Positions 3,020 to 42,968 of a DNA stretch of 43,122 nucleotides are shown here, in pieces (position 1 is the first letter of the stretch; each line of letters starts with the position of its first letter). The DNA is taken from positions 1 to 43,122 of the forward strand of contig JAENWC010000197.1 in assembly GCA_016650235.1 (NCBI GenBank), given 5' to 3'. The notes under the pieces are model-generated. The model saw only the letters and a program-made list of their open reading frames with translations. It ran no database searches and had not been told where the DNA came from. Both the position numbers and the translations under genes were made by a program. This DNA comes from Terriglobia bacterium. Lineage in GTDB: Bacteria; Acidobacteriota; Terriglobia; Bryobacterales; Bryobacteraceae.

Positions 3020-6000
3020 ATGCTTGCTCGCGATTGGAATCAACACAAAGCCTTCTATGACTACATAGTGATCGGGTCCGGTTACGGCGGCGCCATCACG
3101 GCCGCCCGCATCTCGGGCGCAAACCTGAATCCCAAGCCGAGCGTCTGCATCCTGGAGCGCGGCAAGGAGTGGCCGGTCGGTGATTTCCCCGATAAGTTCG
3201 AAAATTATGCTTCCGAGCTGCGCAGCGATCTCAATCCGCTGGGCCTCTATGATGTTCTGAACTACCCCGACATCTCCGTGATCAAGGGCTCCGGTCTGGG
3301 TGGAACCTCTCTGGTCAATGCCAACGTCGCCATTGTTCCGGACGAGCAGGCTTTTCAGCTTGACGGATGGCCGCAAGCGGTGACGCGTAGCGAACTCATG
3401 CCCTATTACGCCAAGGCAAAGCAGACGCTGGCCGCCGCTCCTCATCCTCGCGCCGCCGGATTACCCAAGGTGCAGGCCCTGGAGAGGCGCGCGCAGGACC
3501 TGGGCCTTTCCGCGCAGGCCCTCGACATCGCGGTCAACTTCGACATCGAAGGCAAGAATGAGCACGGCGTGGAGCAGCACAAGTGCACCGATTGCGGCGA
3601 TTGCGTGACCGGCTGCAACGTGGGCGCCAAGAACACGCTCTACATGAACTATCTGCCCATGGCCGCCAAGGCCGGGGCGGAGATCTACACGCAGACGAAA
3701 GTGGAGTGGATTGAAAAACTGGATAGCGGCGGATGGCGCGTCCACGGCCGGCATTATCGAAGCAAGTTGAGCAACCGCAAGTTCACCATCGAGGCGAAGA
3801 ACGTCATTCTCGCGGCAGGCTCTATCAACTCCACCGAGATCCTCATGCGCTCGGCGCAGTTGCACGGGCTGTCGGTCTCTCCGGCCATTGGCACGCGTTT
3901 TGGCGGCAATGGCGACTTCTTCGGCCTCTCCTATAACGGTGACCAGCAGACGCAGGTGCTCGGTTTCGGGAACCACTCCGGCAGTCCCGGCGCGGTCATT
4001 CCGCCCGGCCCCGCCATTGTCGCCGCCGTACGCTATGAGATGAACCAGCCCATGGAGAATCGCTTCACCGTGGAGGATCTGAGTTTCTCCAAGGCGTATG
4101 TGCGCGCCGCGCAGATCGCGTTTGCCGCGCTACGCGGTGAAGACACCGACGCCGGGGATGAGGACGCCGAGAGGGTGCGCATGACGCGGGATATTTTCGG
4201 GCTGGAGCCGTATCATCCCGACGGCGCCCTGAACCACACCATGCTCTATCTGTGTATGGGCATTGACAACCGGAAAGGCTATTTCCGCTGGGAGCGGCCC
4301 CTGCTCGAACGGGACGGACGCGTGAGCGTGATCTGGCCGGAGGCGGGCCGGCAGCAGGTCTTCAGTCTAATGAACGAGGAGTTGCGCCGCCATACCCGCC
4401 GCGAGGGCGGCAGTTTCCTTCCCAATCCCTTGTGGTCTTTTCTCAATCTGCGGCACCTGGTGACGGCGCATCCGCTGGGTGGATGCCCCATGGGCGAGGA
4501 CTATCTGTCCGGCGCCGTGGACCAGTATGGCCGCGTCTATTCCGGCGACGGTGCCGTGCACACGGGACTGTTTGTTGCCGATGGAGCCATTGTTCCTTCG
4601 GCGCTGGCCGTGAACCCATTCCTTACCATCTCTGCGCTCGCAGAGCGCATCGCCGCCCGCATGATCCTCGCCGAGGGCGGTACCGCCTATCCCGCCCCGA
4701 AGATGAGTGCCGGGTTCGGTTCGCTCGATCCGGTGGATGCCATCTCGATGAGCGAAGTGGAACTCGACCGCATTTTCGAAAGAGCGCCGAATCAGCCCAT
4801 CGGTCTCATGGTGAACGAAGGCGGCCGTCAGATGGATCTGGCTACCGAGCGCATCGTCAATGACGACTTCTGGAAAGGTTTCTTTCCCCAGGGGCACGCC
4901 CTCAACGCCATGTCGGCGATGCTCTTCACCGGATTCAAGAAGCAGTTCTCCAGAAAAGGGAATAACGTCATCGGCGTGACCGGCGATTCGGACGGCTTGA
5001 TCCACGCCCGCAACGAGATGAAGTCCATCACATTGAAGCAGCAGGAAGGCGACCTGCCTCCGGGCGACTATGTGCTGCTCAAGTATGTCGATCCCCCCTG
5101 GCAGGGCTTCTACGACGTCTTCAAAGTGGTGTCAAAGGATCTGCTCATCGGACGCGTCTATCTCGGCGAGTTCCCGAATGGCGCCCGCATGTTCACCTTT
5201 CCGATGACGCGCGCGTACAGCTTTGATCAGATGACGGCCGAGGATCACAGGAAACTCTACGAGCAGGCCGCCGTCCCCACTGCCCAGGAGTTGCAGGGAG
5301 CCTGGCGCATGGACGTGATCTCAAACGCAAACCAGGCGCGCGGCATGGCCTACCTGTCCTTTGACAACAAGCCGGACGGGAGGCTCGAGAGCCGTTTTCA
5401 ATTGATGGGCATGCTGGAGGGCTTGATCGCGCCCAACGCCACCACGGAGCATTTTCAACTAAACGATTTCACCCCGTTTCGCGATGAGATCCGCAAAATT
5501 GACAGTAAGCTGATGATCGGGCGCTGGGTAACCGATCTGGCCGTGGAACCCGCCGCCAGATCCCTCGGCGTGTTCCATCTGGAGAAGCAGCCGGCGCGGT
5601 TTGGCTTCTACTACCTGTTGCGGCCCGCCGAATCGGGCAAGCTCCCCACCAACACGCTGCTGAGTCCGTTGCTGGACGCGCATTTGCCCAAGGGCGTCGG
5701 GCTGACCTTTGATGAGCAGATGGTGGGATCGCGCGCCACCTTCTCCGTTCGCATGGTGATTCAGGATATTAACGAATTCATCGAAGGAAGCCAGCACGAG
5801 GCGCGCATGGAAGGTTCCGTGCGAATCACCGATTTTGACGGGCAGGCCGACGTGACGCTTACGGTGAACTCCCTGCGCAGCTACTTCAACTATCTGCGCG
5901 TGAACCCCGCCACCGGTGAGGCGGAGATGCGATACTACCTGGAATTCTCCGGCGCAACAGGCAAGCGCTACAGCCTGGAAGGCAAAAAGTTCATGCAGCG

Positions 6001-6295
6001 GGACAGTTCCGGCAATGAGACCTTGCAGGATTACACGACGCTCTTCACTACCGTGTACGAACTCACCCCCGGCGGCAAGCAGCAGCTATTTGAAGACGTC
6101 CTCAAGTTCCACACATTTGAAGACCTGGCCGCGGTAGGCAACCTGATGGGTTTCCTACGCAGCTTCCGCGTCACCGGGACAGAAGATCCAGGCCTGCAAC
6201 TGATGGCGCAGATGAGATTCCACGCATTCACGGCGCAGTTTGTCATGCAGGAGTACGACCCACTGGCGGCTGCGGTAGGACAGGCCTCCGGCTAG
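3020..6295 (+). CDS. GMC-family flavin oxidoreductase (cholesterol-oxidase-like) with a four-cysteine motif and a large C-terminal extension
   Basis: FAD-dependent alcohol oxidase or dehydrogenase of 1091 residues; the substrate is unknown. The N-terminal half (about 10-560) is a GMC fold. It has the dinucleotide-binding G19-x-G21-x-x-G24 segment (IGSGYGG), the family glycine-rich stretch GSGLGGTSLVNANV, and the C-terminal substrate-domain motif AHPLGGCPMG with the likely catalytic His484 and partner Asn532. Between them, Cys189, 192, 195 and 199 form C-x2-C-x2-C-x3-C followed by NVGAKNT, a spacing seen in iron-sulfur-bearing GMC dehydrogenases. Residues about 570-1091 match no domain I recognise; parts look beta-rich and lipocalin-like, with a helical tail. 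There is no signal peptide. GGAGG precedes the ATG by 6 bases. The gene stands alone and converges on the chemosensory operon. Typical GMC proteins are 500-600 residues, so the second half is a real fusion. Confidence 0.85.
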   Translation: MLARDWNQHKAFYDYIVIGSGYGGAITAARISGANLNPKPSVCILERGKEWPVGDFPDKFENYASELRSDLNPLGLYDVLNYPDISVIKGSGLGGTSLVNANVAIVPDEQAFQLDGWPQAVTRSELMPYYAKAKQTLAAAPHPRAAGLPKVQALERRAQDLGLSAQALDIAVNFDIEGKNEHGVEQHKCTDCGDCVTGCNVGAKNTLYMNYLPMAAKAGAEIYTQTKVEWIEKLDSGGWRVHGRHYRSKLSNRKFTIEAKNVILAAGSINSTEILMRSAQLHGLSVSPAIGTRFGGNGDFFGLSYNGDQQTQVLGFGNHSGSPGAVIPPGPAIVAAVRYEMNQPMENRFTVEDLSFSKAYVRAAQIAFAALRGEDTDAGDEDAERVRMTRDIFGLEPYHPDGALNHTMLYLCMGIDNRKGYFRWERPLLERDGRVSVIWPEAGRQQVFSLMNEELRRHTRREGGSFLPNPLWSFLNLRHLVTAHPLGGCPMGEDYLSGAVDQYGRVYSGDGAVHTGLFVADGAIVPSALAVNPFLTISALAERIAARMILAEGGTAYPAPKMSAGFGSLDPVDAISMSEVELDRIFERAPNQPIGLMVNEGGRQMDLATERIVNDDFWKGFFPQGHALNAMSAMLFTGFKKQFSRKGNNVIGVTGDSDGLIHARNEMKSITLKQQEGDLPPGDYVLLKYVDPPWQGFYDVFKVVSKDLLIGRVYLGEFPNGARMFTFPMTRAYSFDQMTAEDHRKLYEQAAVPTAQELQGAWRMDVISNANQARGMAYLSFDNKPDGRLESRFQLMGMLEGLIAPNATTEHFQLNDFTPFRDEIRKIDSKLMIGRWVTDLAVEPAARSLGVFHLEKQPARFGFYYLLRPAESGKLPTNTLLSPLLDAHLPKGVGLTFDEQMVGSRATFSVRMVIQDINEFIEGSQHEARMEGSVRITDFDGQADVTLTVNSLRSYFNYLRVNPATGEAEMRYYLEFSGATGKRYSLEGKKFMQRDSSGNETLQDYTTLFTTVYELTPGGKQQLFEDVLKFHTFEDLAAVGNLMGFLRSFRVTGTEDPGLQLMAQMRFHAFTAQFVMQEYDPLAAAVGQASG

Positions 6296-36291: not shown

Positions 36292-39105
36292 TCAGTAAAC
36301 CTGTGGTTTGACGGAGACCGGATCAACCCGGCCGGACTTGATGTCGTAGAGCCGGCGGTGAGTTTGGCGCGCAGCCTCCACCAGTTCGACATAGGGCAAG
36401 TCGAGCACGTTGAGGAAGCCGTAGTTGAGACGCTCCTGGTCAGAAGGGCGGCCGGTGGGAAGATTGTCGACGAGTTGGAACCAGTGGGTACCGATCATCG
36501 CCGGGTGAGAGGCGGCCGTCTCGACATAGTAGCGATACGCTTTGCCGCGCTCAGGCTGATCTTTCACCTTGTGGACCCAATAGAACAGACCTTGCAGCCC
36601 GCGTCCGGGAGCACAAGCGGTGAATTCACCGATCAGAATGGGCCGCCCGGAAAGGCGCGCGAAGCGATCCAGTTTCGCATGATCGGGGGCGAACTGTTCG
36701 GCGTAGATGTTGATGCTGAAGACGTCGAAGAGGGAACTCAGACGAACCCACTCGTCGTCGGGCGAGCCTGCGAAGCGAATTCCGAGGACGAGATGATTGG
36801 GATCGTGACGCCGGACGGCGCGGGTGATGACTTCGAGGTAGCGGCGTCCGCAGGTGAAGACAAAGTCGCGTTTGATTTGATCCGCCTGGGCGGGATTGGC
36901 GGCGAGCAGTTGCTGGAGCGCCTGCTTCGTAGCTGAGTCGTCTGGGTCTTCGAGCAGCATAACCGCCCACGGCTTGAGCGAGCCGAACTCGCGAGCCCAG
37001 TGTGGCTCGTTGCCGAGGAACCAACCGATCAGGTTGGGATCGTCCTTGAGAGGCGCGCACTGCTTCCGCGCGGCCTCGTCGACATTTCGTTCGAACTCAG
37101 CGGAGAAAACGTCCGGGAAATCCCAAGGGAAGGGAAACGTCTTTTTCGTCGTCCATCCGGAGAGGGGCAGCACGTAGGGCATGCCACTGGAGGTGGCAAG
37201 GTCGGTGTCCGCCCAGTTGGCGATGGTGTTGAATCCCCAGTTCTTAAGGCGCTTCACGATGTCTTCGGGCCAGCGGCGCAGCCAGTCGTCGCCGTAGCGC
37301 ATCATGACATTCTCCAGGTGGAACGAGACGTCTTTCCCCGGGCTAAGCCATGCCGCGCCCGGTGGTGGAAGTTGCTCATACAGAAATTCGCGGCCCGTGA
37401 CCCGTGTGGCAAAGCTGCCCTGCGTCAGATTCACCAGGTCCATGCCGGCGGAGTAGAAAGGGTGGCCGTGCGGATCGACGAAATACCAGCGACCGTCGAT
37501 ACGATCGGTGCGGAAAAAGCCCGTTGCGTTGCGCGTGAGCTTCGAGTCGCCGCCAAGAGGGCAGAACGGAAAAGAGACCGGTTGCAGCCGGTCGCCGTCC
37601 CAGAGTGTCCGAAGCTCCTCGGCCGAATGCGCTTTGCCGGGCCAATCCTCGGCCATCCATTGTCCGAAGCGATCGATGACTGGCTTGCGGTCGAGAATGC
37701 CGTCGTTCTCCACGGCGGAAACCAAGGCTAGATTGGTGATGGCGAGCTTCGCATCGACAGCCGGCTGCTTCATGCGAAAGACCAATTCCTCCACCTTTTC
37801 AAACGTGAAGAGGCGCTGCGGCCAAGCCTTGTAGCCGAGCGGGTTTTGGGGCACCATCTGCCGGGTCTGATAAAACGCGTCGAAAGGAATGACGGCGCGA
37901 ATGCGCAACCCTGGAAGCGGCTCCACGATCATGCTCTTCACCCGCGAGCCGTCGGAGAAACCAACCGAGAAGGCTTCGAGCGATGAGGCGTCGAATTCGA
38001 AGCGGATGGCCTTCCAGGCTCGCCAGTCGCGTGGCCAGGAGAGTTGGGTAACCGGGATGCGGAACTCAGGCGCTGCCTCGCCGCGTCGAAAAGTGAAGTT
38101 GAGTGGGGCCGGCGCCGGCAGAATGGCCGGGGCGCGGTAGCTCCACAGAAGTTCGACGTCGATGCCACCGATCGTGTGGGTGTCATGGTAAGCAAAGCGG
38201 CCCGACCCCGGAGTGTTGGTCTCGCCCCAGCCACCGGACATGCTAACCGGAAAGCCAAAGGCGTTCCACCGAGCGACGGCCTGGTCCATGTCGGGGACAT
38301 TGAAGGCGATGTGGTGGAAGCCCTCGCCGTGCTTGGCGATGTGGTCTTCGTAAACGTTTGGCCCCTGAAGGGGCTGGATCCATTCGAACGGGACCTTCAG
38401 ATGACGCTGCCAGCCCAGACGCATGTCGAAGATCCCGGGCGCTCCCCGGTAGACCTTGCCGGTAATTTCGGGGTGAGTAAACGAAAACGGTGGAAAGCCG
38501 AGTTTCTGCCAGAACGCGGAGACGGTGTCCAGGTCGCGCGCCGTGAGGGCGAACTGGGTGACAGGAGGACCGGTCTGCGCGGGAGCCTGTTCCGGCTCGG
38601 GATCGTAGAGGAGACCAAGGCAGATCTTGCCCTGGGCCTCGGTGTCGAAAAAGACGTAGGGAACTTTCCGGTTGTCGTCCAACTCGAAGATGCCCTCTTC
38701 CATAATGGATACCCCGAGGGACCGCAGGCGGCCGGTCTCGGTCTCCAGGGCTTCCTTCGAAGGTGCTCGGTACACGAGGGCAAAAATGCCCGGACCGCGT
38801 CGTTTGAGGAACTCAGCCCAGGCTGAGTCGCCGGAAACAGGCTGAATCCAATCGGCGCGGACGTTGGCAAATCTGCCAGTCTGGGTACGGAAACTGTGGT
38901 TGCTTTGGCGGCCGCGGAACTGAACGCCCGTGGCGCTGAGCGGTGCGGTGTCGCCCTCGTGGGGGATGCCGGCGTTCTTCCAGGCAGCGGCGACGCGTTC
39001 TACATCGTCAACCACCCAGAAGAGGTGAGGAAGGCTCTGATAGAAATCGGGGAGCTGAGCGGAGAGAGTTGCACAGAAAATGACGGTCAGGATGAGGACT
39101 CGCAT
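36292..39105 (-). CDS. Secreted fusion of two VOC (glyoxalase-like) domains with an agarase-like glycoside hydrolase
   Basis: The 937-residue protein starts with a signal peptide (1-17). Residues about 22-168 and 182-325 are two VOC-like modules. The second has the clearest family features: GFHHIAFNVPDMDQAV with His265 and the last-strand Glu318 in VELLW, while the usual first histidine is missing. Residues about 335-465 are a beta-rich carbohydrate-binding-like module. Residues about 475-937 are a TIM-barrel glycosidase of the beta-agarase-like type (GFFRTDRIDGRWYFVDPHGHPF). It has the acid/base N699-E700 in FLGNEPHW and a nucleophile candidate Glu827 in ILIGEFT. No conserved catalytic residue is lost in the barrel. 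It is divergent from the TonB receptor, so it may share its control and act on the same glycan. The exact GH family and the role of the VOC part are unknown. Confidence 0.8.
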   Translation of the reverse strand: MRVLILTVIFCATLSAQLPDFYQSLPHLFWVVDDVERVAAAWKNAGIPHEGDTAPLSATGVQFRGRQSNHSFRTQTGRFANVRADWIQPVSGDSAWAEFLKRRGPGIFALVYRAPSKEALETETGRLRSLGVSIMEEGIFELDDNRKVPYVFFDTEAQGKICLGLLYDPEPEQAPAQTGPPVTQFALTARDLDTVSAFWQKLGFPPFSFTHPEITGKVYRGAPGIFDMRLGWQRHLKVPFEWIQPLQGPNVYEDHIAKHGEGFHHIAFNVPDMDQAVARWNAFGFPVSMSGGWGETNTPGSGRFAYHDTHTIGGIDVELLWSYRAPAILPAPAPLNFTFRRGEAAPEFRIPVTQLSWPRDWRAWKAIRFEFDASSLEAFSVGFSDGSRVKSMIVEPLPGLRIRAVIPFDAFYQTRQMVPQNPLGYKAWPQRLFTFEKVEELVFRMKQPAVDAKLAITNLALVSAVENDGILDRKPVIDRFGQWMAEDWPGKAHSAEELRTLWDGDRLQPVSFPFCPLGGDSKLTRNATGFFRTDRIDGRWYFVDPHGHPFYSAGMDLVNLTQGSFATRVTGREFLYEQLPPPGAAWLSPGKDVSFHLENVMMRYGDDWLRRWPEDIVKRLKNWGFNTIANWADTDLATSSGMPYVLPLSGWTTKKTFPFPWDFPDVFSAEFERNVDEAARKQCAPLKDDPNLIGWFLGNEPHWAREFGSLKPWAVMLLEDPDDSATKQALQQLLAANPAQADQIKRDFVFTCGRRYLEVITRAVRRHDPNHLVLGIRFAGSPDDEWVRLSSLFDVFSINIYAEQFAPDHAKLDRFARLSGRPILIGEFTACAPGRGLQGLFYWVHKVKDQPERGKAYRYYVETAASHPAMIGTHWFQLVDNLPTGRPSDQERLNYGFLNVLDLPYVELVEAARQTHRRLYDIKSGRVDPVSVKPQVY

Positions 39106-39166
39106 CGGAACCTCGCAATACTACAGCCGCCTAAACTATAGCAGACACTTTCTGCAAGCGGGGCAA

Positions 39167-39209
39167 CCAGATTTCCCACAACCGGATTTCCCACAACCGG
39201 ATTTCCCCA
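39167..39209 (+). repeat. Three tandem copies of a 15-base repeat upstream of the TonB-receptor promoter
   Basis: CCAGATTTCCCACAA, CCGGATTTCCCACAA and CCGGATTTCCCCA follow each other head to tail and end directly at the -35 box of the receptor promoter. The position suggests an operator array for an activator or repressor, but no regulator is known. A slippage-made repeat without function is the alternative. Confidence 0.6.
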
Positions 39210-39238
39210 TTGACAACGGCGCCGGGTGGCAGTATATT
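39210..39238 (+). promoter_or_regulatory. Near-consensus sigma-70-type promoter of the TonB-dependent receptor gene
   Basis: TTGACA (39210-39215), a perfect -35 box, is followed after exactly 17 bases by TATATT (39233-39238, 5 of 6). Transcription would begin near 39245, leaving a leader of about 130 bases before the ATG at 39378. Confidence 0.7.
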
Positions 39239-39377
39239 CGCGTCAGAGGTCGTAAACTCTTAATATAAGAGCGTGGACGCCCAGGGTCTCGCTCCCAATG
39301 GCGCCAGAGCTTTGGCGCTCCGGCGCAACTTCAAGTCCAGTTCTTCAGTGGCCAGTCGCCATGAAAGGGGTCTTCTA

Positions 39378-42300
39378 ATGGGACTACTATCAAACTCCAT
39401 TGCTACCGGCAATTTCAATCAACGGTGTGTGCTGTTCACCGTCGCACTGCTCATCTGCACGGCGCCCTTGGCCGCGCAATTCGACCGCGGCACTGTCGCC
39501 GGCAGCATCACCGACCCGTCCGGAGCAATTGTTCCGAACGCCGAAGTCATCATGAGGAACTTGGATACCGGTGTTCTCTCGCGCACCGTGACCAACGAAA
39601 TCGGCCTCTTCACGCTGTCGAATATCCCAATCGGCCGGTATGAAATCCGCATCACCGCGCCGGGGTTCAAGGTCCACACCAGATCCGCCATCACCTTGAC
39701 GGTTGCGCAGACGCTCCGCATGGACGTCGCGCTGGAAACAGGTACTGTGCAGGAAAGCGTCACAGTCAGCGCTGATGCGTCGCTGCTGCAAGTGGATAAC
39801 GCCCAGGTGACGACAACCATTCAAAGCAAGGTGATTACGGACCTGCCTCTGTCCTTCGCCGGCGGGCGCGCCATCGAGAACTTCGCCTATGCGCTGACTC
39901 CGGCAGTAGAGGGCAACAACTGGACCTCGTACATCGCAGGTTCTCCGGCGTTCAGCAAGGAGGTGCTGATCGACGGCATGTCGGCGACAGCCCAGATCCA
40001 GGGTCACGTCGGCGAGTCCAGCCCGACCATGGAAGCGGTGCAGGAATTCACCGTGCAGACCAGCGGTATGTCGGCTGAATATGGCCGCACATCGGGCGCG
40101 GTGTTCAACTTTGCGCTGAAGTCGGGCACCAATAATTTCCACGGTTCCGCGTTCTACTACCTGCGCAATGAAGCGTTGAACGCGAACACGTGGATGAACA
40201 ACTGGCGGCTCAGCCAGTCGCCCAACGACTCCCGCTACATCCGCGCGCGCGACCGCCAGTTTCTCGGCGGGTTCAGCGCAGGCGGACCCGTGCTCATCCC
40301 GAAAATCTACAATGGCCGGAACAAAACATTCATCTTCGGGGCATTCGAGCACTATACGCAGGAGCGATACCAGTTGAACCAGGAGTACACCTCCACCGTT
40401 CCCATTCCGGACTTTCTATCGGGCAATTTCAGCCAGCTCCTGACGAATGAACTGCTCGGCAAAGACGCCATGGGAAGGGACGTGTATGCCGGACAGATTT
40501 TCGACGCCAAGACCTTGCGCCGCGAAGGCACCCGCTGGGTGGCCGATGCGTTCCCCGGCAACATCATGCCCGCCAGCAGAATCAGTGCGATGTCGGCCAA
40601 GATCGTCGATATCTATCGCAAGAGCTATTCGCCGTTGATTGCCGGCCGCCTTGCCAACAATTCCACTCGGACCTTGTACAACACCCCCTGGTTCCATCAG
40701 ACACAGATGACGTACAAGGGCGACCACGCGATCTCGCAGAACAACAAACTGAGCGGCTCGATCATCTGGACGCAGCGGCCGCGCATACTGGCCGATGCCG
40801 GAGGCGTTTGGGATCCGGCGGACCGCAATGGCGGAGCCTTCGCGAAATCCCGCAAGCAGGAGGTCACCAGCAGGGCAGCGAGGTTGAGCAACAACTGGAT
40901 GATCACTCCGACGCTGATCAACACGGCCTCCTTTGCCTTCAACCGGTACAGGAACCCCAGCATCTCCACGCAGGCTGGGGGAGATTGGAACAAGTATCTC
41001 GGCATCGATGGGGTTACGGATGCTCCGCTATTCCCGGAAATCAACTTTGGCAGCGCCGTCAATGGAATCGGTATTACCAACATCGGCTATAACTCCAGCG
41101 GCTACTATGTCGGCAACACCTACATCATGGGCGACTCGATGACTTGGGTCCGTGGACGTCACACCATGAAGTTCGGCGGACAGTTCTGGAAACAACAGAT
41201 CAACAGTCACAGCGGCTACAACGCTCTGCAATATACCTTCGCGAATACGACAACGGGTATCCCTGGCGAGACCTGGAGCAACCGCGTTGGCTTCGGCTTC
41301 GCCAGTTTCCTGCTCGGCGATGTGGCCAGCTCCACCAAGGGTGTTCCGTTTGATCTGTACGGCCGGCGAGACTACGTCGAAACGTATTTCCAAGACGATA
41401 TTCGTGTAAATCGCCGGTTGACGCTCAATCTCGGATTACGCTGGGAGCAGGCGCAACCGCTCAAAGAAAAATACGGGCGATGGGCCAACTTCAGTCCCAA
41501 CGTGACGAATACCCAATATAACGTGAAGGGCGCTCTCGAGTTCTTGAAGAGCCCCGGCGACTCCTTCGAGCGCAACAAGGACTGGAAGGAGTTCTCGCCG
41601 CGCATCGGGGTGGCTTACCGCATCGGCGAGAAGCACGTGGTCCGCGGAGGCTACGGCATTTTCTTCAGCCCGCTCGGGATCAATTACTGGAGCGGAGTCC
41701 CATACGGATTCGCGCCCGGATATCGAGGTACGAACACTGTCAATGCAACGGGCAACCTTGCCAGATTCAATTGGGATGCAACCAAGTATCCTGACAACTA
41801 CGTGGCCCCAAAGCTGGATCCGAATACGCTGATCTGGGGCATGGTCGCCATAGAGCCGGACAGCCTCTACCAGGCCTACAACCACCAGTACAACGTCAGC
41901 TATCAGTTCGAGGTTCGCCAGGACTTCGTGATGGAGTTTACCTATATGGGAAACCAGGGGCGTCGCATCCACAGCGGTGCGTTGAATCGCAACCAGCCGG
42001 TGCGCGAGGCCTACGAAGATCCGAAAGTAAACCCCACCGCATGGGTTTCCAGCCCGGCCGAGGCCGCCGCGGCCGGCGTGCCCTACCCCTACGCGGGCTT
42101 CGCGGGCAACGCCGGTTTTGCGCTGATGCCATATCCGCACGTCATGGCCGTGACGTATGGGCCGACCTATTTCGTCGGCACCAACCGCGGCTCTTCCCGC
42201 TACGACTCGTTTCAGATCCAGGCTACTAAGCGAATGTCGCATGGCATCGCCGCGCAAGCTTCGTACAACTTGTCGAAAGCGGTGGGCAACGTCGAAACCG

Positions 42301-42968
42301 CCTTTGATGAGACCTGGGACGCCAACGCAGGCATTCAGGACATCCGGAATCTCGCGGCGGATGCCGGCACAGTGCTGCCCTACGACCAGCGTCACATTTT
42401 GAAAGGCTACGTGCAGTATCAACTGCCGTTCGGCAATGGGCGCAGGTTCGCCAGTCCCGCGCGCGGATGGGTTAACGCCATTATCGGCGGCTGGGACATG
42501 ACCTGGATCTTCAAGTACAACACGGGCATCCCGCTCGCCATCTCGCCGAACGTCAACTTCCCTGGTTGGGAAGGCGCTGTGTACGCCGATTGGAACCGCA
42601 GCACGAGCCTCGACGGGACGTTCGATCCGATTGGATTCAATCCTGGCGTGCAGAACTCGCCGGCGAATCTGTATTTCAACCGTGCCGCGTTCTCCAACCC
42701 CCAGAACCACAAACTGGGCACCGGCATGCGACGGTATGACGAATTGCGCGGCTTCGGGTGGTCGAACGAGGACATCGGGCTGCTCAAGTACTGGCGCCCG
42801 TCCGAGCGATTCAGCGTGCAATTCCGCGCTGAACTGCTCAACGTCTTCAACCGCCATCATTTCGCGAATCCGAACACCGGTCTGGGCAACCTGACCAATT
42901 TCGGTTACGTGACGGGCATGACCGGCGAACCTCGTAGCGTCCAGGTCGGGCTGCGGCTCGGCTGGTAG
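39378..42968 (+). CDS. Oar-type TonB-dependent outer-membrane receptor with N-terminal carboxypeptidase-like domain
   Basis: Outer-membrane beta-barrel of 1196 residues. I start at the ATG at 39378 (AAAGGGG ten bases before), which gives a signal peptide ending at APLAAQ; the frame is open upstream to a GTG at 39273, but those residues are not signal-like. Residues about 37-120 form the carboxypeptidase-like regulatory fold (GSITDPSGAIVPNAEV, SNIPIGRYEIRITAPGF). The plug is about 140-275 (DGMSATAQI, EYGRTSGAVFN), then the barrel runs to the terminal aromatic in QVGLRLGW. Such receptors are expanded in acidobacteria and are thought to take up large glycans or other substrates; the ligand is unknown. 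It is divergent from the VOC-glycosidase gene. Confidence 0.9.
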   Translation: MGLLSNSIATGNFNQRCVLFTVALLICTAPLAAQFDRGTVAGSITDPSGAIVPNAEVIMRNLDTGVLSRTVTNEIGLFTLSNIPIGRYEIRITAPGFKVHTRSAITLTVAQTLRMDVALETGTVQESVTVSADASLLQVDNAQVTTTIQSKVITDLPLSFAGGRAIENFAYALTPAVEGNNWTSYIAGSPAFSKEVLIDGMSATAQIQGHVGESSPTMEAVQEFTVQTSGMSAEYGRTSGAVFNFALKSGTNNFHGSAFYYLRNEALNANTWMNNWRLSQSPNDSRYIRARDRQFLGGFSAGGPVLIPKIYNGRNKTFIFGAFEHYTQERYQLNQEYTSTVPIPDFLSGNFSQLLTNELLGKDAMGRDVYAGQIFDAKTLRREGTRWVADAFPGNIMPASRISAMSAKIVDIYRKSYSPLIAGRLANNSTRTLYNTPWFHQTQMTYKGDHAISQNNKLSGSIIWTQRPRILADAGGVWDPADRNGGAFAKSRKQEVTSRAARLSNNWMITPTLINTASFAFNRYRNPSISTQAGGDWNKYLGIDGVTDAPLFPEINFGSAVNGIGITNIGYNSSGYYVGNTYIMGDSMTWVRGRHTMKFGGQFWKQQINSHSGYNALQYTFANTTTGIPGETWSNRVGFGFASFLLGDVASSTKGVPFDLYGRRDYVETYFQDDIRVNRRLTLNLGLRWEQAQPLKEKYGRWANFSPNVTNTQYNVKGALEFLKSPGDSFERNKDWKEFSPRIGVAYRIGEKHVVRGGYGIFFSPLGINYWSGVPYGFAPGYRGTNTVNATGNLARFNWDATKYPDNYVAPKLDPNTLIWGMVAIEPDSLYQAYNHQYNVSYQFEVRQDFVMEFTYMGNQGRRIHSGALNRNQPVREAYEDPKVNPTAWVSSPAEAAAAGVPYPYAGFAGNAGFALMPYPHVMAVTYGPTYFVGTNRGSSRYDSFQIQATKRMSHGIAAQASYNLSKAVGNVETAFDETWDANAGIQDIRNLAADAGTVLPYDQRHILKGYVQYQLPFGNGRRFASPARGWVNAIIGGWDMTWIFKYNTGIPLAISPNVNFPGWEGAVYADWNRSTSLDGTFDPIGFNPGVQNSPANLYFNRAAFSNPQNHKLGTGMRRYDELRGFGWSNEDIGLLKYWRPSERFSVQFRAELLNVFNRHHFANPNTGLGNLTNFGYVTGMTGEPRSVQVGLRLGW

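Follow-up and report, generated by a model that had tools for sequence, protein, structure and literature searches.

A conserved fusion of two VOC domains with a GH50-type glycosidase in Bryobacteraceae and its possible role in glycan use

Introduction

The usual picture of a VOC protein is that of a small enzyme in the cytoplasm. The question raised by the gene described here is what a pair of VOC domains may do when it is joined, behind a signal peptide, to a glycosidase. The gene lies in a window (i.e., the whole stretch of DNA that was analysed) of 43,122 nucleotides, which lies in contig C197 of a draft genome, a MAG that is 86% complete and consists of 562 contigs. An earlier note on this DNA described the product as a secreted protein with an agarase-like barrel and proposed that the gene and a divergently oriented receptor gene form a glycan capture-and-cleavage unit. 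A search of open-licence papers turned up neither a VOC-glycosidase nor a matching protein, a result that speaks only weakly for novelty.

Results

The gene (36292..39105, - strand) is a single frame of 937 amino acids with an ATG start and no internal stop, and frame, Pfam, phmmer and AlphaFold together give the layout VOC-VOC-beta sandwich-GH50; the earlier description of an uninterrupted frame with a signal peptide, two VOC domains, a beta-rich module and a barrel is thus borne out. The signal peptide (residues 1-16, 39058..39105, - strand; MRVLILTVIFCATLSA, with Q following the cleavage point) was called by eye, and homologues have equivalent N-termini. It is followed by VOC-a (residues 24-168, 38602..39036), VOC-b (residues 180-323, 38137..38568), a beta sandwich of the type that precedes GH50 barrels, recognised with AlphaFold and Foldseek (residues 335-470, 37696..38103), and the GH50 (beta/alpha)8 catalytic region (residues 471-930, 36316..37695), all on the - strand. 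The AlphaFold model of the whole protein has a mean pLDDT of 89.6, with values of about 95 in both VOC domains, and the VOC pair modelled alone reached a pLDDT of 92.8 and a pTM of 0.88; residues 22-325, for which the earlier note had proposed structure prediction, adopt VOC folds in these models, each domain consisting of two beta-alpha-beta3 units as assigned by DSSP. PF13669 matched two stretches of the protein (E 1.9e-18, over cut-off) and PF00903 matched over its own cut-off. NCBIfam gave no equivalog for the protein, with the methylmalonyl-CoA epimerase model TIGR03081 scoring 30.3 bits against a cut-off of 114.95.

The fragmented state of the draft genome (562 contigs) could suggest that two genes were joined by sequencing or assembly error. 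A scan of contigs from 84,980 species, however, identified three full-length relatives, all acidobacterial, with best-segment identities of 75, 63, and 58%, and among 257 genomes of the order the fusion is carried by nine Bryobacteraceae genomes (our own, G207, G142-G146, G210, and G205, the last of which is counted as probable because the fusion is divided between the ends of two contigs that do not overlap quite identically). Judging by their equal lengths, the contigs labelled L011, L012, and L013 are apparently the same as those of G207, G143, and G210 and do not represent extra genomes. The fusion is uninterrupted in G144 and G145, each a single-contig genome, and is found in other genomes at 61-76% identity. 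Because related genomes, single-contig ones included, carry the same uninterrupted fusion, an assembly artefact, against which the earlier note had asked for a check in relatives, was rejected as extremely improbable; the VOC-VOC-GH50 architecture and its conservation across genomes are near certain.

A second VOC-VOC fusion is located elsewhere in the same genome (C338, L096:3875-6601, - strand), where a signal-like N-terminus and the VOC pair are followed by a tannase/feruloyl esterase domain (PF07519); in the relatives listed, the matches to VOC pair and tannase lie in two different frames, so that the fusion on C338 could be either unique or artefactual. The window also contains a frame of 1091 amino acids (3020-6295, + strand) in which GMC oxidoreductase domains cover about the first half only, with no Pfam match in the remainder at the threshold used.

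The two VOC domains of the fused protein are not equivalent, because only VOC-b keeps the putative metal ligands. E241, H265, and E318 are invariant in 24/24 aligned VOC-pair rows (alignment A1), and position 184 is Gln in most of these rows and His in a few; in the alignment with the VOC protein 3gm5, which phmmer matched to residues 220-323 among solved structures, E241, H265, and E318 occupy positions that are conserved among VOC proteins. The combination Q184/E241/H265/E318, which we take to match the metal ligands of glyoxalase I (Gln, Glu, His, and Glu), is a putative metal site. VOC-a has the fold without the usual metal ligands or any comparable set, and evolves faster; dN/dS in close pairs was 0.17-0.24 for VOC-a, 0.02-0.12 for VOC-b, and 0.06-0.12 for the barrel, by a simple pairwise Nei-Gojobori count in which synonymous sites are near-saturated in wider pairs. 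In the pair formed by our own genome and G207 as well as in the genus g49, VOC-b is under strong purifying selection with all ligands kept. In G205/G210, E241 and H265 are among the roughly 45 residues that the fused VOC-b has lost, and what is left of this domain evolves faster than the barrel, which stays constrained; the frames of these proteins are open (L024:829-3510, + strand; L072; L071). Six aromatic residues (W199, Y219, W242, Y252, W293, and Y306) are also invariant in the VOC pair.

Two groups of known VOC enzymes resemble this pair. HPPD and 4-hydroxymandelate synthase show the same mutual arrangement of two VOC domains with putative ligands in the second only (VIA Z of 21.8 for the best match, with an rmsd of 3.8 over 269 residues, down to about 19), but the window protein is secreted, fused to a glycosidase, and has an extra invariant Glu241, at an identity of 10-18%. 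In the comparison with glyoxalase I and methylmalonyl-CoA epimerase, the Q/H, E, H, E pattern of putative ligands is taken to match that of glyoxalase I, and VOC-b aligns to 3gm5 and to epimerases; unlike these enzymes, the window protein has two VOC domains, one of them ligand-free, is secreted, and has relatives in a sugar-gene context.

Assignment of the barrel to GH50 is supported by phmmer matches to the solved structures of Aga50D (E 7e-53) and AgWH50C (E 8e-46), with PfGH50B in that range, and by a Foldseek match to 4bq5 (E 1.2e-37). The catalytic glutamates named in the earlier note hold up as those of clan GH-A, with the acid/base E700 (37006-37008, - strand) corresponding to E534 and the nucleophile E827 (36625-36627, - strand) to E695 of Aga50D; these equivalences were derived by hand from the phmmer alignment, and a numbering offset of 43 fits both. 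GH50 active-site residues besides the catalytic pair have been listed (PMC11079163), and N699, F876, R886, and E891 match N533, F742, R752, and E757 of Aga50D; all six active-site residues are invariant in 20/20 GH rows. In its barrel, preceding beta sandwich, and active-site residues, the window protein is thus like Aga50D of Saccharophagus degradans, AgWH50C, PfGH50B, PaBglu50A (GH50_2), and Fsa16295Glu (GH50_3), but it differs from them in its N-terminal VOC pair, in belonging to an acidobacterial clade on a long branch, and in the tie of its gene to a GH42-associated receptor subfamily and not to a known agarolytic locus. The label "agarase-like" used previously holds at the level of the GH50 family but does not reach beyond it, as GH50 also includes beta-1,3-glucanases, such as the beta-1,3-endoglucanase Fsa16295Glu and PaBglu50A, which is named as a beta-1,3-glucanase (PMC11079163); agarase activity is therefore not established for this barrel.

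The fused GH50s form one clade with the VOC-less GH50s of G083 and G108, and a long branch sets this clade apart from the remaining GH50s in these bacteria; a GH50 paralogue of our own genome (on C207) lies outside this clade. BLASTP over 15 and 12 kb found no separate VOC gene directly upstream of the VOC-less GH50s in G083 and G108, and no VOC-pair gene was among the matches listed for either genome.

Divergent from the fused gene is a gene for an Oar/TonB-type outer-membrane receptor (39372..42968, + strand; alternative start GTG at 39273), whose identity as an Oar-type receptor, as previously proposed, is confirmed by PF25183 and CarboxypepD_reg matches. In a search of 257 genomes, each of which gave dozens to hundreds of first-look candidates, the best homologue of this receptor (69%, G108) is encoded beside GH42 and the VOC-less GH50, the second best (67%, G002) is encoded beside a standalone VOC pair, and several more top matches have coordinates that place them next to GH42, GH50 or VOC-pair genes. 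As the closest homologues adjoin GH42-GH50 or VOC-pair genes, and this receptor subfamily accompanies VOC-pair, GH42 and GH50 genes in other genomes, the earlier idea of a capture-and-cleavage unit is supported. The divergent intergenic region (39106..39371, unstranded) contains 2.9 copies of a 15-bp tandem repeat (CAACCGGATTTCCCA, window positions 39164-39207), possibly an operator; the exact 16-base repeat pattern that was searched has no other occurrence in our own genome.

The VOC pair also exists as a secreted standalone protein of about 315-340 amino acids, found in about 21 of the 257 genomes of the order, where it is 32-55% identical to the fused pair; among 396 genomes sampled across the phylum, five further high-scoring VOC pairs were found in other families. 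Phylogenetic analysis placed the fused rows and the standalone rows of G209/G202/G206 on one side of a branch with support of 98/94, and a clade of fused rows alone was rejected (p-AU 0.0016). Because the fused-only clade is rejected and these standalone rows group inside, the simplest history would be one fusion followed by one later split (in G209/G202/G206), though the long branch of the degenerate G205/G210 rows in this tree calls for caution.

Standalone VOC pairs are associated with sugar genes. A strong match to the beta-galactosidase family GH42 was found within 6 kb in 6/21 genomes (G156, G168, G221, G224, G126, and G122) and a Fucose_iso_C isomerase within 10 kb in 7/21 genomes, with a gap of only 91-126 bp between VOC pair and isomerase in four genomes (G209, G202, G206, and G071). 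Rough binomial P values for GH42 and isomerase, respectively, were 2e-10 and 3e-12 by genome and 6e-8 and 9e-8 by genus, assuming 2.0 and 1.3 genes, respectively, in every 6 Mb; these associations concern the standalone VOC pair and not the fused gene itself. A LacI regulator and the VOC pair lie divergent from a TonB-type receptor and GH42 in G122, G156, and G168, and in G497 the VOC pair, the isomerase and a ribulokinase (AraB) stand in a row. G412 has an AraD-type gene near its standalone VOC pair; directly after the pair of this genome lies a DUF1080 gene (3-keto-disaccharide hydrolase, PF06439; L093:9469-10155, + strand). With regard to the glycosidases of the fused clade, GH42 is located directly upstream of the VOC-less sister GH50s in G083 and G108, and the fused gene of g49 genomes is divergent from a GH29 fucosidase-type gene at at least three loci. 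Our own genome (MAG 86% complete) has no match to the isomerase. These neighbourhoods point to glycans that bear galactose, arabinose or fucose.

Discussion

The best explanation, to which we assign a probability of about 0.42, is that the fused protein is exported and serves the use of beta-galactoside/L-arabinose glycans, with the GH50 cutting the glycan, a metal-binding VOC-b processing or binding a released sugar, and VOC-a being structural. Architecture, folds, residue conservation, gene association, and one fusion with one later split are the computed parts of this explanation; metal binding, substrate, VOC reaction and location on the cell are inferred. The barrel would cleave a beta-linked glycan by a retaining two-glutamate mechanism; the substrate is more likely to be a plant-type galactan or arabinogalactan than agar, where arabinogalactan is our own suggestion from the neighbourhoods, and the products would be taken up by the divergently encoded receptor. 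The VOC pair would be a secreted module that loci for beta-galactoside/L-arabinose utilisation normally encode as a protein of its own. It is most likely that VOC-b binds a divalent metal and that the sugar released there is what it acts on, possibly through metal-assisted proton transfer as in glyoxalase I and methylmalonyl-CoA epimerase, which would lead to isomerisation, epimerisation or anomer exchange, and VOC-a would be the half with a structural role, as found in two-domain VOC enzymes of the HPPD type.

A role in glycan use that is common to VOC pair and barrel is likely, and a VOC part that binds or modifies the product sugar, as suggested earlier, is consistent with the neighbourhoods (GH42, sugar isomerase, AraB/AraD); the accompanying ideas of an oxidised or lactone-type sugar, or of a metal-dependent glycan, found no direct support here. 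A VOC-b that is catalytic on a sugar is the best single guess, though it is no likelier than all other readings together. A more specific proposal, which is tentative, is that VOC-b works outside the cytoplasm as a metal-dependent isomerase, epimerase or mutarotase of sugars; in the fused protein it would be attached to the very glycosidase that supplies its substrate, and elsewhere it would be made next to L-arabinose-type isomerase genes. We know of no such role for secreted VOC proteins. Counted against the best explanation are the failure of the search of open-licence papers to bring up a VOC protein that is a sugar isomerase or mutarotase, the VOC-less sister GH50s of G083 and G108, the partial loss of VOC-b in G205/G210, and the missing isomerase in our own genome. 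Chemistry on 3-keto-sugars (3-ketoglycosides) is suggested because DUF1080 and Gfo/Idh genes lie near some VOC pairs, and stays a lead because genes of both kinds seem to be widespread in this group of bacteria.

The most serious competitor, doubtful but worth considering, is a non-catalytic sugar-binding module, i.e., a CBM-like module with a VOC fold that keeps glycan or products near the barrel, with a metal that is structural or chelates hydroxyls. VOC proteins of the binding type exist (e.g., bleomycin-resistance proteins), modular joining to a glycosidase is typical of binding modules, the standalone form, being secreted and encoded next to receptors and transporters, could have a binding function, and both the invariant aromatic residues and the disappearance of the VOC-b metal site in G205/G210 while the glycosidase persists would fit. 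Yet the glyoxalase-I-like set of four residues is more strictly conserved over divergent proteins than simple stacking would need, and the standalone form directly adjoins a sugar isomerase in several genomes. The absence of VOC domains from the sister GH50s, the degenerate VOC-b of G205/G210, and the one re-separation (G209/G202/G206) could instead indicate that the pair is a hitch-hiking or decaying passenger, useful only as a separate protein and with little role when fused; the low dN/dS of VOC-b (0.02-0.12) and the retention of all ligands in the pair of our own genome and G207 and in g49 make this unlikely.

Less probable still is that VOC-b is a non-haem iron dioxygenase of the HPPD/hydroxymandelate synthase or extradiol type, acting outside the cytoplasm on phenolics of plant polysaccharides. 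Phenolics can be attached to plant cell-wall polysaccharides, and HPPD and 4-hydroxymandelate synthase are the best fold matches, but the 2-His-1-carboxylate iron site of the HPPD type is lacking, with Gln (Gln184 here) at the position of the first iron-binding His in most rows; the invariant acidic E241 is as in glyoxalase I and not HPPD, and the neighbours are sugar genes, not aromatic genes.

The exported beta-galactoside/L-arabinose component remains our preferred explanation, and the G210/G205 proteins, in which VOC-b has shrunk, offer a naturally occurring way to test the need for this domain. For annotation, acidobacterial GH50 genes should not be read as agarases. A conserved secreted VOC pair that is tied to glycan genes, and that was joined on one occasion to the glycosidase, would represent an unrecognised step in the use of galactose and arabinose polymers by acidobacteria, for which a defined protein, a ligand set and candidate substrates are now at hand to test.
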